Source: Christensenella minuta (GTDB lineage Bacteria; Bacillota; Clostridia; Christensenellales; Christensenellaceae). From it: a stretch of 64,000 nt of DNA. The notes beneath the pieces were generated by a model. It had not been told where the DNA came from. It saw only the letters and a list, made by a program, of their open reading frames with translations, and ran no database searches. This document shows, piece after piece, positions 23,704 through 44,422 of this stretch; position 1 is the stretch's first letter; each line of letters opens with the position of its first letter. The DNA lies in assembly GCF_003628755.1 (NCBI RefSeq), contig NZ_CP029256.1, forward strand, positions 577,585 through 641,584, read 5' to 3'. The position numbers and the translations under genes are program-made.

Positions 23704-24777
23704 ATGAACGCGATACCTCAGAGAGCATATGACAATTATGAAAGAATACAGCTGCCTCGCAGGATAAATGATCCGCAGCGCGGCCGTATTTCCGATATGG
23801 AAGCTTACCGCATGCAGAAAATCGCGGCAGAACGCCGCCGCCTTCAGCAGCAGGATGAAATTCGCACGGCCCGGAGGGTAGGGGTGCAGGAAGGACGCCC
23901 GGCACAGGCCCGCCAGCAGCAGGCATCCCGGCGGCAAGCGCAAGGCCAGACGAGAAGAACGCCGGAACAGGCTCAGCGCCAGCGTTATGCGGCTGCACAG
24001 CGGAATGAAGCGCAAGGCGAACGATACAGCATTCGCCAGACTGGCGTGAAGAATATTGTAGGCGGCAGAAGGCTTGCTCCCGCTTATGAAAGCGGATATG
24101 CAGCGGGGAACGATTATGCCTATGGAACGCAGCAAACGGGAAGGTCCGAAAGAAGGTATTCCGAAAGGTACGACCGACGTGGCGAATATGCACGGCCGCG
24201 TCAGGCGGCGAGCTATGGCGGATATGCTGCTCCAGCCCCGAAACGATATGTGCGCGGATATGAACGGGAACGACTTTCCGAGATAGAAAACACCGCATAT
24301 AGCGGCGTAAAGCCTATCGCGGTAGAATATGAAAGCCCCAAGAAGAAAGGGGTGATATCCACGATCCTGCTGATCGCTGTCGTGTTTGCAGTTTTGACCG
24401 GGATCGTGATCCGGTATGCCTCGATCAGCGATCTGAGCTATAAGAATACACAGATTCAGACGCAAAACGAAACGCTGAAAGACGAGCTGGATAAAATTAA
24501 AATGGAAAATGCACTCAGCCAGGACCTGAACAGCATTCAGGAGAAGGCATCTACAGAACTGGGGATGTACTATCCAACCGATGAGCAGATCGTCTACTTA
24601 GAACCCGAAGCAGAAGGGGAAACTGCCGCTGCGGAAAGCAGCGTGCAGCAGGCTGCGACGGAACAGGCAGCTGTTCAGGCTCGGGAAAGTACGGATGGAG
24701 AGGCCAGCTTCCTTGAAGGCATCCAGGGCTTTTTCGGAGACCTGATGGAGGCCTTGAAAGGATGGTTTCAGGCATGA
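23704..24777 (+). CDS. FtsL-like cell division protein with long N-terminal extension
   Basis: Occupies the ftsL position between rsmH and the PBP gene. It has 357 residues, far longer than typical FtsL (about 100-120). Residues 1-213 are a basic Arg/Gln/Tyr/Ala-rich, probably disordered cytoplasmic part. One membrane helix lies at about 216-238, followed by an extracellular coiled coil (about 245-285) whose tail STELGMYYPTDEQIVYLE resembles the FtsL/DivIC end. A further Glu/Ala/Gln-rich tail of about 55 residues ends in an amphipathic segment. The FtsL call rests on position and topology, not strong sequence identity. Confidence 0.7.
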   Translation: MNAIPQRAYDNYERIQLPRRINDPQRGRISDMEAYRMQKIAAERRRLQQQDEIRTARRVGVQEGRPAQARQQQASRRQAQGQTRRTPEQAQRQRYAAAQRNEAQGERYSIRQTGVKNIVGGRRLAPAYESGYAAGNDYAYGTQQTGRSERRYSERYDRRGEYARPRQAASYGGYAAPAPKRYVRGYERERLSEIENTAYSGVKPIAVEYESPKKKGVISTILLIAVVFAVLTGIVIRYASISDLSYKNTQIQTQNETLKDELDKIKMENALSQDLNSIQEKASTELGMYYPTDEQIVYLEPEAEGETAAAESSVQQAATEQAAVQARESTDGEASFLEGIQGFFGDLMEALKGWFQA

Positions 24778-24795
24778 GGATAAGGAGTTAACGGT

Positions 24796-26895
24796 TTGGC
24801 AACCTCGCATGTCCTGATTACAAGAAAAAGACTGCTTGTCTTATTGATTATATTGATTGTACTCATTATCCTGCTCATGACGCGAGTGGGATATTGGTCT
24901 TTATGGAAAGGCGCGGACCTGAAGGCGCAGGCCGAATCGCAATGGGTCAAAGATACGGAGGTCAGCGCAAAGCGCGGTTCTATTATGGACCGGAATCAGC
25001 AAATTCTTGCACAAAGCGCGGCGGCCGATACGGTAGTGCTCCTGCCAGAAAAGATTGAGAAGGCGCAAAACGCAGGGGAGGTCGCGGATCAGCTTTCGCA
25101 GATACTCGGACTGGACCGTGAGGAAGTTTATCAGAAGGCCGCCAATACGGAGAAAAAGGAAATTTGGCTGAAAAGACAAATTTCCATGGAGCAATCAGAA
25201 CAGATCGAAGCGCTCGATCTGGATGGAGTTGCTTTCCGGGACGATGTAAAACGCTTTTATCCCAATAAAGATTTTGCGGCGCAGGTGATTGGCTATACGA
25301 CGCTTGACGGCGAAGGCCAGACGGGGATCGAGAGGCGCTACAACACCACGCTTTCGGGCCGTGCGGGCAGGCAGGTTGCTGAAACGGCGAAGGATGGAAG
25401 CGGTGTACCCAATGGGCAGGAAATGATGATTCAACCGCAGGACGGCTTGAATGTAGTGCTTACTATTGACGAAATCACCCAGAGCTTTTTGGAAACCGCC
25501 TGCAAAAAGCTTTATGAAACACAATCGCCGGAGAGCGTCCAAGGGCTTGTAATGGACGTAACCAACGGAGAAGTGCTCGCTATGGCGAACATTCCCGAAT
25601 TTGACCTGAATTCTCCGCCGCGTGATGATGCGGAGGCGCTGTCTGCGCTTTCCGCCAATGTAATCACAGCTACCGCATACGAGCCGGGAAACATCTTTGG
25701 AATATTTACAGCAGCGGCGGCACTTGACAGCGGGACCCTAGGCGGCGAATACGCATGTACGGGTTCTCATATTGTGGATGGAGAAGTCATTACGTGCAGT
25801 AACGCTCATGGTTCGCAGGATATGGCGAATACGGTGCTGAACCATTGCAGCATAGGAGCGGCAATGCAGGCTGGCGCTATGGGGCGTGATGTGTTCTATC
25901 AATATTTGAAGGGATTTGGCTTCGGAACGAAAACAGGGATTGATTTCTCTACCGATACGGCAGGGGATCTGACCGAAAAACGTTATGCGCGGGAAGAAGA
26001 TGTGGCGGTGATGGGTACGGGGACGGATCTTAAAATATCCCAAATGCAGCTTGCGGGCGCTGCGGGCTCCATAATAAACGGAGGCACCCTGTATACGCCT
26101 AAGATGGTGCTTGGCCTTTCCGATGCCGATGGCAATATGGTGGAATCCTACGAGCCGGAGGCAAAGGGACAGAGCGTTACGGCAGAAACGGCTGCGCAAA
26201 TCAAAGCGGTAATGGAAAGCAGGGCACAGACGGATGGAGTTGCCGTTGCGGGCTACTCTACCGGCGCGATGTGCGGATATGCACATCAATATAAGGACGG
26301 AGCCGTCGTGCAGGGCAGAGTTGTTTCAACATATATTGCATATGCGCCGGCCGACGATCCAAAATATATGGTGATGATTACAGCTACGGGGATGCCCGCG
26401 ACCGAGACCGTGGAAACGGCGTGCGCTCCATACGTGCAGGAAACACTGGAAGGGGCGCTTAAAAATGGAAATATTATGCCCAGTGAAAATATGCAGGAAC
26501 AGGAGAAAGTAACTGTACCGAACGTCGTCGGAATGGAATTGCAGGAAGCGCGTGATGCGCTTGCAAATGCAGGCCTGCAGTCTTCCTATGATGGAAACGG
26601 CGTCGTAACCAGCCAGGTGCCGGCTGCGGATGAAACGGCCTATAAGAACAGCACGGTTACCCTTTCTATGGAGACTAAGGCGATGCAGCAGGAGGGAGCC
26701 GAAATGGTGACCGTCCCGGACTTCACAGGTATGGATATGGCGGCGGCCAGGGATACGGCAGTTTCTTCAGGGCTTGTATTTATTGCGAGAGGAAATGGCG
26801 TAGCACAGGGGCAATCGCCTGCGGCGGGAACGCAGGTCAGTAAGGGAAGTAATATCGTTGTTGATTTTAGACTACAAATTGCGTCTGCGGAGTAG
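24796..26895 (+). CDS. PASTA penicillin-binding protein lacking catalytic motifs (FtsI/SpoVD position)
   Basis: Class B PBP of 699 residues: one membrane anchor (about 13-33), dimerisation domain (about 50-215), transpeptidase-like domain (about 245-545) and two PASTA repeats (about 572-695). The fold motifs are clear (YEPGNIFGIFTAAAALDSG, FGFGTKTGIDF, IAYAPADDPKYMVM), yet the active site is gone. The SxxK position reads Asn299-Ile-Phe-Gly302, the SxN position reads His-Cys-Ser352, and the KTG position reads Met-Cys-Gly when GYSTGAMCGYAHQYKDG is aligned with the usual GYKVAGKTGTAQ block. It should not acylate penicillin or crosslink peptide. TTG start at 24796 behind AAGGAG. Confidence 0.88.
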   Translation: MATSHVLITRKRLLVLLIILIVLIILLMTRVGYWSLWKGADLKAQAESQWVKDTEVSAKRGSIMDRNQQILAQSAAADTVVLLPEKIEKAQNAGEVADQLSQILGLDREEVYQKAANTEKKEIWLKRQISMEQSEQIEALDLDGVAFRDDVKRFYPNKDFAAQVIGYTTLDGEGQTGIERRYNTTLSGRAGRQVAETAKDGSGVPNGQEMMIQPQDGLNVVLTIDEITQSFLETACKKLYETQSPESVQGLVMDVTNGEVLAMANIPEFDLNSPPRDDAEALSALSANVITATAYEPGNIFGIFTAAAALDSGTLGGEYACTGSHIVDGEVITCSNAHGSQDMANTVLNHCSIGAAMQAGAMGRDVFYQYLKGFGFGTKTGIDFSTDTAGDLTEKRYAREEDVAVMGTGTDLKISQMQLAGAAGSIINGGTLYTPKMVLGLSDADGNMVESYEPEAKGQSVTAETAAQIKAVMESRAQTDGVAVAGYSTGAMCGYAHQYKDGAVVQGRVVSTYIAYAPADDPKYMVMITATGMPATETVETACAPYVQETLEGALKNGNIMPSENMQEQEKVTVPNVVGMELQEARDALANAGLQSSYDGNGVVTSQVPAADETAYKNSTVTLSMETKAMQQEGAEMVTVPDFTGMDMAAARDTAVSSGLVFIARGNGVAQGQSPAAGTQVSKGSNIVVDFRLQIASAE

Positions 26896-30824: not shown

Positions 30825-31979
30825 ATGCAGAAAAAGAGCATTTTACAAAAGGGATCGATCGATTATTCGATCTTGATCGTAACGTTGATATTAATCGCCT
30901 ACGGGGTCATCATGGTATTCAGCGCCAGCTATTATATGGCGCAGTCTTCCAAGGAATATGATTACGATGGCTTGGCGCTTTTCAAAAAACAGTTGTTCGG
31001 CGCGGCAATCGGTTTGGCGGCAATGGTTTTTTTTGCATTTTTCGATTACAAAAAGCTGTTCAAGCTTCGCTATATTATTTTAGCGCTGGCCGGAATTTTT
31101 CTGGTTGCGGTGCTCATACCCGGCGTAGGAGTGAACCTGAATGGATCGTCGCGGTGGATCAGGGTGCTTGGCATCAGTATCCAGCCGGCGGAAATTGCAA
31201 AGATTGCGCTGATTATCTTTATCGCATCTTCAGTTTATCTCAACCGCAAGCGTATGGATACCCTGCGCTATGGAATGCTCCCCCCCCTTATTGTGCTTTT
31301 GCCAATTTGCGTACTTTTGTATTTCCAGCCGAATTATTCGGCGATCATTGTGCTGGCGGCGCTCACATTTATCATGATGTTTGTGGGTGGGGTGAAGGGC
31401 TGGCACCTTGCCGCATTGGGCGGCATCGGGGTTGTCGGAGGAGTCGTACTCATGGTGCAGGAGCCCTATCGGGTTGCGCGTCTCGCATCCTTTATGGATC
31501 CGTGGCAGAATCCGACGGGGGACGGCTACCAGGTAATACAGTCCTTATACGGCATCGGGTCGGGCGGGCTTTTCGGGCAGGGGATCGGAAACGGGACCCA
31601 AAAGCTCTCCTGGCTTCCTTATGGGGAGTCGGACTTTATTTTTTCGATCATTGCGGAGGAACTTGGACTCATCGGCGCGGTTCTGCTTCTCGCTTTGTTC
31701 ATTTTCCTGATTTACAGGGGAATCAAGGTAGCGGCGACTGCCCCGGACCTGTTCGGGACAATGCTTGCGACAGGCATTATTACGCTGATCGGTTTGCAGG
31801 TGGTGGTCAATGTAGGCGTCGTGACCGCCTCTCTGCCGCCAACGGGGGTATCCCTGCCGTTCATCAGCTATGGGAGCTCTTCGCTGATTATATTTATGAG
31901 CATGATTGGGATATTGCTCAATATATCTAAACAGGGCAGGCGGATTATGATGGCAAACACAGTGCGCCAGAAGACATAA
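30825..31979 (+). CDS. ftsW: SEDS peptidoglycan glycosyltransferase FtsW/SpoVE
   Basis: Membrane lipid II polymerase that works with a class B PBP. It has 384 residues and about ten membrane helices. SEDS signatures: GVNLNGSSRWIRV and QPAEIAKIAL near residues 105-130, FQPNYSAIIV (QPD-like; here PN), GNGTQKLSWLPYGESDFIFSIIAEELG near 250 and PPTGVSLPFISYGSSS near 340. It sits in the gene order of ftsW/spoVE. Its presumed partner in this cluster is the catalytically altered PBP at 24796. Confidence 0.93.
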   Translation: MQKKSILQKGSIDYSILIVTLILIAYGVIMVFSASYYMAQSSKEYDYDGLALFKKQLFGAAIGLAAMVFFAFFDYKKLFKLRYIILALAGIFLVAVLIPGVGVNLNGSSRWIRVLGISIQPAEIAKIALIIFIASSVYLNRKRMDTLRYGMLPPLIVLLPICVLLYFQPNYSAIIVLAALTFIMMFVGGVKGWHLAALGGIGVVGGVVLMVQEPYRVARLASFMDPWQNPTGDGYQVIQSLYGIGSGGLFGQGIGNGTQKLSWLPYGESDFIFSIIAEELGLIGAVLLLALFIFLIYRGIKVAATAPDLFGTMLATGIITLIGLQVVVNVGVVTASLPPTGVSLPFISYGSSSLIIFMSMIGILLNISKQGRRIMMANTVRQKT

Positions 31980-35602: not shown

Positions 35603-36208
35603 ATGAAGAAACAGCTGTGTGGCAAGGAAAATGCAGGCGTACCGCTTTTCCCGGCAAAAGACCTGCCTGAAATAAGCGGACCGGGATTGTACGAAAAAAG
35701 GTCGCTGGTTGAAAAGAATCTTGCGATCGTTACATTTGTGGCAAACAAATATACTGGACGGGCAACTGAATTTGAAGATCTGGTATCGGTGGGGAACATT
35801 GGACTGATTAAAGCGGCGGACACCTTTGACCCCTTTAAAAATGTACAATTTTCCACCTATGCTTCCCGTTGTATTGAAAATGAAATTTTGATGTATCTTC
35901 GCAAGAATACAAGACGCGAAGTGCCGCTGGGAAACTGGAAGGCAGAGAGGATGGCGGAATCGGGCGAAGATCTGGTATGGGCGGAAATGGAACGCAGTAT
36001 TGATCTTGCAAGAGTTAAGGAAACCGCGAAAAGGCTTCCGCCAAAGCAGAAAAAGATCATCTGTCTGCGTTTTGGCTTTGGAGGAGAACGGCAAAGGACC
36101 CAAAAGGAAGTTGCCAGGATCGCCGGAGTCTCTCAGTCGTGCGTCAGCAAAGTGGAACGAAAATTCAGCTTCCTTTTAAAGGCGGCTATGGGCGATGATG
36201 TCAAATAG
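35603..36208 (+). CDS. Short SigE-like RNA polymerase sigma factor
   Basis: Sigma-70 family protein of 201 residues, shorter than SigE or SigK (about 235-240). Region 2 is clear: DLVSVGNIGLIKAADTF and FSTYASRCIENEILMYLR, closest in wording to sporulation SigE. Region 4 has QKEVARIAGVSQSCVSKVE. Missing or reduced are the membrane-binding pro-sequence of SigE, much of region 1.2 and the region-3 linker. In Clostridia this spot after ftsZ normally holds spoIIGA, sigE and sigG; here no spoIIGA is present. Start ATG at 35603 behind AAGGGGACGGG. Confidence 0.8.
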   Translation: MKKQLCGKENAGVPLFPAKDLPEISGPGLYEKRSLVEKNLAIVTFVANKYTGRATEFEDLVSVGNIGLIKAADTFDPFKNVQFSTYASRCIENEILMYLRKNTRREVPLGNWKAERMAESGEDLVWAEMERSIDLARVKETAKRLPPKQKKIICLRFGFGGERQRTQKEVARIAGVSQSCVSKVERKFSFLLKAAMGDDVK

Positions 36209-40420: not shown

Positions 40421-40496
40421 GGGAGTATAGCTCAGCTGGGAGAGCATCTGCCTTACAAGCAGAGGGTCACAGGTTCGAGCCCTGTTACTCCCACCA
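40421..40496 (+). tRNA. tRNA-Val (anticodon TAC)
   Basis: 76 bases including encoded CCA. Acceptor GGGAGTA pairs with TACTCCC; the anticodon stem TCTGC/GCAGA encloses loop CTTACAA; GGTTCGAGC forms the T arm. Confidence 0.97.
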
Positions 40497-40522
40497 TTCA
40501 ATTCTTGCTAATTTATTTCTAT

Positions 40523-40599
40523 GGCCTGGTAGTTCAGTTGGTTAGAACGCTAGCCTGTCACGCTAGAGGTCGAGAGTTCGAGTCTCTTCCAGGTCGCCA
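40523..40599 (+). tRNA. tRNA-Asp (anticodon GTC)
   Basis: 77 bases including CCA. Acceptor GGCCTGG pairs with CCAGGTC (one G-U); anticodon stem CTAGC/GCTAG encloses CTGTCAC; the T arm contains GTTCGAGTC. Confidence 0.96.
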
Positions 40600-40640
40600 T
40601 AGAATCCCTTTCCGGGCTTCCGGGCCCGGAGGGAACATAA

Positions 40641-40715
40641 GCGGGAGTGGCTCAGTGGTAGAGCGTCGCCTTGCCAAGGCGAATGTCGCGAGTTCGAATC
40701 TCGTCTTCCGCTCCA
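40641..40715 (+). tRNA. tRNA-Gly (anticodon GCC)
   Basis: 75 bases including CCA. Acceptor GCGGGAG pairs with CTTCCGC (one G-U); anticodon stem TCGCC/GGCGA encloses TTGCCAA; the T arm contains GTTCGAATC. Confidence 0.96.
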
Positions 40716-40718
40716 AAT

Positions 40719-40792
40719 GGCGCCATAGCCAAGTGGTAAGGCAGGGGCCTGCAAAGCCCTTACCCCCAGTTCAAATCTGGGTGGCGCCTCCA
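40719..40792 (+). tRNA. tRNA-Cys (anticodon GCA)
   Basis: 74 bases including CCA, three bases after tRNA-Gly. Acceptor GGCGCCA pairs with TGGCGCC; anticodon stem closes around CTGCAAA; the T arm is CCCAGTTCAAATCTGGG. Confidence 0.96.
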
Positions 40793-44333: not shown

Positions 44334-44422
44334 GCCGAAGTGGCGGAATTGGCAGACGCACAGGACTTAAAATCCTGCGGGATTTAACCCCCGTACCGGT
44401 TCGATCCCGGTCTTCGGCACCA
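44334..44422 (+). tRNA. tRNA-Leu (anticodon TAA)
   Basis: 89 bases including CCA, with the long variable arm of leucine tRNAs. Acceptor GCCGAAG pairs with CTTCGGC; anticodon stem CAGGA/TCCTG encloses CTTAAAA; the T arm is CCGGTTCGATCCCGG. It lies alone inside the carbohydrate region. Confidence 0.97.

Follow-up and report, generated by a model that had tools for sequence, protein, structure and literature searches.

The window analysed here is a 64,000-nucleotide stretch of the Christensenella minuta genome (contig NZ_CP029256.1, positions 577,585 to 641,584 of the forward strand). It holds a dcw cluster with the gene order mraZ-rsmH-ftsL-PBP-murE-mraY-murD-ftsW-ftsQ-ftsA-ftsZ. The PBP gene is an open frame of 699 codons encoding a class B penicillin-binding protein (PBP), in which Pfam reports a PBP_dimer domain (residues 56–202), a Transpeptidase domain (residues 251–531, 145 bits) and two PASTA stretches. 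A preliminary description of this DNA had read the product as an intact frame with a membrane anchor, a dimerisation domain, a transpeptidase-like fold and two PASTA repeats, and the open frame, the Pfam matches and a structural model all agree with it. The features of the locus are collected in Table 1. The ftsL frames of six Christensenella-group loci are 339–476 codons long, against 152–224 codons in the 13 other relatives in which ftsL was found. Elsewhere in the window, four tRNA genes are clustered at 40421–40789 and a fifth lies at 44334–44419.

Table 1. Features of the dcw locus, in window coordinates
Feature	Position	Strand	Basis
FtsL-like, 357 aa; extended N-terminal part	23704..24777	+	
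AAGGAG, ribosome-binding-like site, 8 bases 5' of the TTG	24782..24787	+	sequence
Class B PBP of SpoVD type (pseudo-transpeptidase); 699 aa, TTG start	24796..26895	+	frame, profiles, model
Predicted N-terminal membrane-anchor helix, residues 4–37	24805..24906	+	model
Pedestal / PBP_dimer domain, residues 56–202; conserved in degenerate lineages	24961..25401	+	Pfam, column conservation
SxxK site, now N299-I-F-G302	25690..25701	+	alignment
C321, first putative Zn2+ ligand, kept in 17/17	25756..25758	+	alignment, motif as in PMC9334274
C334, second putative Zn2+ ligand, kept in 17/17	25795..25797	+	alignment
H338, third putative Zn2+ ligand, kept in 17/17	25807..25809	+	alignment
SxN site, now H350-C351-S352; C351 is the putative fourth Zn2+ ligand, kept in 17/17	25843..25851	+	alignment
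KTG site, now M492-C-G494	26269..26277	+	alignment
Two PASTA repeats, approximately residues 572–692	26509..26871	+	Pfam (best stretch from 572), model strands to 692
SEDS glycosyltransferase of the cluster (FtsW/SpoVE), the proposed partner, with the ESDFIF Asp kept	30825..31979	+	

An active class B PBP carries the motifs SxxK, SxN and KTG. In the window PBP the sequences NIFG, HCS and MCG fall exactly at these three sites, both in the alignment with relatives and in the profile match to Clostridioides difficile SpoVD (PDB 7rcz), which confirms the reported loss of all three transpeptidase motifs and rules out an intact set elsewhere in the protein. An isolated allele is likewise ruled out. 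The losses recur in the five other Christensenella genomes searched, among them the named records of C. intestinihominis, Christensenella sp. Marseille-P2438 and C. hongkongensis (88%, 80% and 64% protein identity, respectively), and in other genera and families. Given this recurrence across the genus, neither sequencing error nor chance explains the losses. An AlphaFold2 model built with 28 sequences has a mean pLDDT of 86, and the fold is well modelled. Among the best 50 Foldseek matches, the TM-score by target is 0.82–0.84 for C. difficile SpoVD and 0.83–0.90 for Pseudomonas aeruginosa PBP3, so that the fold is predicted to stand without an active site. Catalytic residues lost from a fold that is predicted to be kept, in a gene under purifying selection (see below), are the marks of a pseudoenzyme and support the earlier reading of the protein as a pseudo-transpeptidase. 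If this is true, the dcw PBP of Christensenella would be no β-lactam target.

Which PBP has been inactivated? The protein had been called a division-locus PBP. Its place in the dcw cluster agrees with that name, but its closest relative is SpoVD and not a vegetative FtsI. Among solved structures C. difficile SpoVD is the nearest (521 bits, against 310 for the next), and the best NCBIfam model is spoVD_pbp (TIGR02214), at 452.8 bits and below the curated cut-off of 688. The gene lies between ftsL and murE, the product has the class B architecture with PASTA, and the residues of the Cys/Cys/His/Cys Zn2+ motif known from C. difficile SpoVD are present. A vegetative FtsI is a catalytic septal transpeptidase, and the catalytic residues are absent here. 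It has been argued that the dcw SEDS and class B PBP genes of sporulating Firmicutes are in fact SpoVE and SpoVD (Shrestha and others, PMC10693644). With this argument, the SpoVD match and the best family model, we treat the protein as a descendant of SpoVD rather than as a vegetative FtsI. SpoVD of C. difficile is a spore-cortex transpeptidase; a cortex role in the present genome is unlikely, judging from its gene content, since it has no match to SpoIVA or SpoIIIAE.

Across the order, 72 dcw-encoded homologues were read. Of these, 55 are intact and 17 are degenerate, defined as having lost at least one of the three motifs. Degenerate copies are present in 12 of the 18 genomes of the window's own family, including all six of the genus, and in five genomes of three other families: G027 (f11), G061, G117 and G157 (f18), and G038 (f22). 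The residues at the lost positions differ among the degenerate proteins, even between close species. In the protein tree there are seven separate losses, all forced by starred branches and constant in bootstraps (7–7), so the refuting alternative of one isolated decayed allele fails. The events are those of the Christensenella group with two sister genera, G011, G007 with G014, G038, G027, G061 with G157, and G117. The tree takes 16 of the 17 degenerate rows. The remaining copy, of G009, was left out for an assembly gap; unknown bases split it into two pieces, which were not joined, and the first piece was counted among the 17. None of the 16 ungapped degenerate copies contains an internal stop. 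The weakest degenerate case is that of G038 (L023), in which SxxK reads STLE, a Lys-to-Glu change, and SxN and KTG are intact; this may be decay at its beginning or an error of the assembly.

The distribution of the losses follows the absence of two sporulation markers. Among genomes with neither SpoIVA nor SpoIIIAE, 17 of 21 have a degenerate PBP, against 0 of 51 with at least one of these markers (Fisher p = 4e-13, kinship ignored). Four genomes that have neither marker have intact motifs: G015 (80% complete), G021 (97%), G071 (90%) and G113 (73%). Either decay is not automatic, then, or the loss of spore markers in these genomes is recent or only apparent. SpoIVA alone was rejected as a marker, as it left ten intact "non-sporulators". 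In six of these (G039, G063, G064, G080, G132 and G159) SpoIIIAE was found, and both markers were therefore used. The search for SpoIIIAE covered 50 genomes (those negative for SpoIVA, plus controls), and SpoIIIAE matches were below the curated cut-off in five of those six genomes and in 17 of 23 overall, as they were in most of the SpoIVA-positive controls. SpoIVA itself has a match in 122 of the 151 genomes of the order; nine of the 29 SpoIVA-negative genomes were found by elimination. In the order sample, all 22 SpoIVA-negative genomes with a dcw PBP match were read, as were 40 of the 116 SpoIVA-positive ones. The 51 marker-positive genomes are these 40, five family members outside the order sample and the six with SpoIIIAE only, and they were picked as sisters of the losers and as a spread of other families, not randomly.

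The markers are no proof of sporulation. The SpoMAG classifier, applied to 19 Christensenellales MAGs from a single host, called only one of them spore-forming (PMC12536801), against the 122 of 151 with SpoIVA, and some marker-positive genomes with intact motifs may thus be non-sporulators. C. minuta and C. intestinihominis have been described as non-spore-forming (PMC11536998). That the motifs were lost several times in relatives that appear to have lost sporulation points to a further role of the protein that is not enzymatic. The scaffold too can be lost. In six genomes of family f4 (G020, G073, G093, G110, G126 and G140) there is no match to SpoIVA, SpoIIIAE, dcw SpoVD or MecA_N; each has two SEDS matches, in G020 both near other PBPs, and the dcw SpoVD-SEDS pair seems to be gone altogether. 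This counts against reading the protein as a scaffold.

In the same cluster a small sigma factor gene follows ftsZ (window 35603–36208). Its best match is the sporulation sigma factor SigE (TIGR02835, 146 bits against a cut-off of 348.6). It is fast evolving, with orthologues in the five other Christensenella genomes and none found in the stretches examined from G006, G009 and G012. It is possibly a second repurposed sporulation relic.

The degenerate genes of Christensenella are under purifying selection. Whole-gene dN/dS is 0.05–0.06 in the three closest Christensenella pairs and 0.10 in a more distant one (G000, the window genome, with G005), and was not computable for G000-G002; many of the dS values are near saturation. 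In the pair G000-G003, dN/dS rises from 0.03 for the pedestal through 0.05 for the transpeptidase part to 0.08 for PASTA; MurE has 0.03. What is kept differs between the parts of the protein. At 16 anchor and pedestal columns that are at least 98% conserved in the 55 intact proteins, the degenerate ones keep a mean of 98%; at 40 transpeptidase columns chosen in the same way they keep a mean of 68%. Similarity was also compared, together with MurE, in 31 chosen pairs of genomes. Where both proteins are intact (11 pairs), similarity in the transpeptidase part always exceeds that in the pedestal, by 2 to 21 points. In each of the 14 pairs of an intact with a degenerate protein this margin is below that of every intact pair of the same family, and in the six pairs in which both are degenerate it is -18 to 0.

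Some residues of the dead active site have been spared. In C. difficile PBP2, PBP3 and SpoVD, Zn2+ is bound in the active site through two Asp (in PBP2) or Cys residues, a His and the Cys at the X position of SxN (PMC9334274). The corresponding Cys, Cys, His and Cys are kept in all the degenerate proteins (Table 1), while the residues flanking C351 are still Ser in 5 and Asn in 6 of the 17. Of the 40 transpeptidase invariants 10 are fully kept, and three ligands of the tetrad are among them (p = 0.012). The window protein may bind Zn2+, and metal ligands kept inside a dead active site would serve something besides catalysis, whether structural or regulatory.

The proposed partner is the SEDS glycosyltransferase of the same cluster. 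The Asp of its ESDFIF-like motif, which we take to be the counterpart of D297 of Escherichia coli FtsW (a sequence outside our alignment), is kept in 12 of the 12 degenerate genomes read. D297 is a putative catalytic residue of E. coli FtsW (PMC8765783). The reading covered 12 of the 17 genomes, all except G004, G011, G061, G117 and G157; G007 and G014 are represented by the named records L064 and L062, which have the same PBP motifs. With the anchor and pedestal conserved and the SEDS Asp intact, evolution supports the structural partner proposed in the preliminary description, and the core of that proposal holds.

If the dcw PBP is dead, another enzyme would have to form the cross-links. The window genome has four other proteins that match PF00905, and all are intact: L010 (SSFK/SDN/KTG), L007 (STMK/SCN/KTG), L008 (SIFK/SCN/KTG) and L009 (SSAK/SLN/KTG). 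None of the PF00905 matches is a second dcw-type SpoVD that could act as a replacement. The L007 locus (G000:C1:1680000-1696000) has a second SEDS gene of 417 codons beside the intact PBP of 512 codons, in which Pfam reports the transpeptidase domain only. A PBP with MecA_N is present in 15 of the 17 degenerate genomes, with SxxK, SDN and KTG intact in all 15, and was not found in G012 and G157 (72% and 68% complete). Its presence is weakly associated with decay (Fisher p = 0.03, kinship ignored). The cross-linker is most likely to be this MecA_N-type class B PBP; the alternatives are a class A PBP (L009), the second SEDS-PBP pair (L007) and a PBP2-like protein (L008). A simple case is G027 (98% complete), which has a single SEDS match, that of the dcw cluster, on the same contig as its degenerate SpoVD, and whose other PF00905 matches lie in two frames, one of 913 codons that includes MecA_N and one of 925 codons. 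Cross-linking by other PBPs or by LD-transpeptidases had been suggested at the outset. Other PBPs with intact motifs are indeed present, but LD-transpeptidases are not supported as a general substitute: of the 12 loss genomes of the family nine have one YkuD match and three (G006, G007 and G014) have none.

We consider it probable that, once sporulation was lost, the catalytic activity of SpoVD was no longer needed, and that the protein was retained in a non-catalytic partnership with the dcw SEDS enzyme, with cross-links made in trans. The ancestor would have been a functional SpoVD, encoded in the dcw cluster as its class B PBP, with its catalysis serving a spore-specific task, most likely cortex synthesis. 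Loss of sporulation would have freed the transpeptidase site from selection and so let it decay. The anchor and pedestal would still bind and activate the SEDS glycosyltransferase in vegetative cells, and the dead transpeptidase domain, held by the Cys3His Zn2+ site, would stay as a folded part of the SEDS complex. The trans cross-links would come from the MecA_N-type PBP or, failing that, from a class A PBP or another SEDS-PBP pair. The link with sporulation and the retained Zn2+ ligands are additions to the preliminary description.

Or is spoVD simply a relict, decaying since sporulation was lost and surviving through its location in an operon? The faster evolution of the transpeptidase part in degenerate lineages would fit this, as would the six f4 genomes with no dcw SpoVD match. 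Against it are the absence of stops from the 16 ungapped copies, the low dN/dS of the close pairs, purifying selection across species that are 62–88% identical, and the near-complete retention of the pedestal invariants and of the Zn2+ ligands; we hold it to be quite improbable. Still harder to believe is a cryptic enzyme that uses another nucleophile, either the Cys of MCG or the Ser kept by some relatives. Ser still stands at the first position of SxxK in 7 of the 17, yet the Lys of SxxK and that of KTG are each kept in one of the 17, the residues at the lost positions vary between close species and further cleft residues are lost as well.

More chance may be allowed to a Zn2+ or redox switch, a low one all the same, in which the dead domain, as a thiol sensor with bound Zn2+, would gate the SEDS enzyme instead of being a passive scaffold. 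The universal retention of the four ligands, the loss of most residues flanking the SxN Cys and the enrichment of ligands among the surviving invariants agree with such a switch, and in active PBPs the motif has been proposed to sense redox state (PMC9334274). A Zn2+ site with a structural function alone, however, would be retained just as well. In a wider form of this reading, to which we give about the same small credence, SpoVD of this order would be two proteins in one, with catalysis serving the spore and a conserved non-catalytic role in vegetative cells that rests on the SEDS-facing half and on a Cys3His Zn2+ switch within what was the active site, so that the loss of sporulation would leave a Zn2+-gated, redox-dependent regulator of the dcw SEDS enzyme. 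The sensing of muropeptides or lipid II through PASTA, as put forward in the preliminary description, gained no support and is improbable. The two repeats are present and the PASTA domains of Staphylococcus aureus PBP1 bind peptidoglycan (PMC9426605), but in all five species pairs compared PASTA exceeds the other three parts of the protein in pN/pS. Catalytically intact relatives also carry PASTA, and sensing would therefore leave the loss of the motifs unexplained.

The preferred reading, a non-catalytic SEDS partner, has to be set beside the observation that deletion of spoVD in C. difficile causes no defect of vegetative growth or shape (PMC10693644), which counts against a scaffold. The main text of that paper has no mention of "Christensenell", and among the matches listed in a search of open-licence papers we found no published report of a dead SpoVD, of a pseudoenzyme FtsI or PBP, or of PBP loss in Christensenella. 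The case bears on whether the dcw SEDS and class B PBP pair has any vegetative role in Clostridia without a canonical FtsW-FtsI pair. The studies of division and sporulation PBPs considered here used engineered mutants to split catalysis from scaffold; here evolution seems repeatedly to have done so, and the outcome of natural decay tells which residues each function needs.

Three engineered systems offer precedents, by analogy, for a dead class B PBP that can persist in a structural role, with another PBP standing in for it. In Bacillus subtilis, division can proceed with PBP2B S309A provided that the MecA-like PBP3 is there (PMC5656894). There too a dead division PBP stays structural and a MecA-like PBP supplies the activity, although PBP2B S309A is a laboratory point mutant, whereas the window protein is of the SpoVD type and its whole site has been lost and naturally fixed. 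In S. aureus the division PBP1 can do without its transpeptidase activity when the MRSA apparatus (mecA rpoB) is present (PMC9426605), a likeness in the dispensability of catalysis, but in an engineered strain and for a vegetative division PBP. In C. difficile the catalytic activity of SpoVD is essential for the cortex and partly dispensable for asymmetric division (PMC12713402). SpoVD S311A, with its dead site, still supports asymmetric division with the SEDS partner; unlike the present case it is engineered, in a sporulating host, and the helper PBP3 works there without catalysis of its own (PMC12713402). The window protein shares with C. difficile SpoVD, its best sequence match in the PDB, the place in the dcw cluster, the predicted fold and the Cys/Cys/His/Cys positions, and differs from it in having none of the three catalytic motifs and in a host genome without SpoIVA and SpoIIIAE matches.
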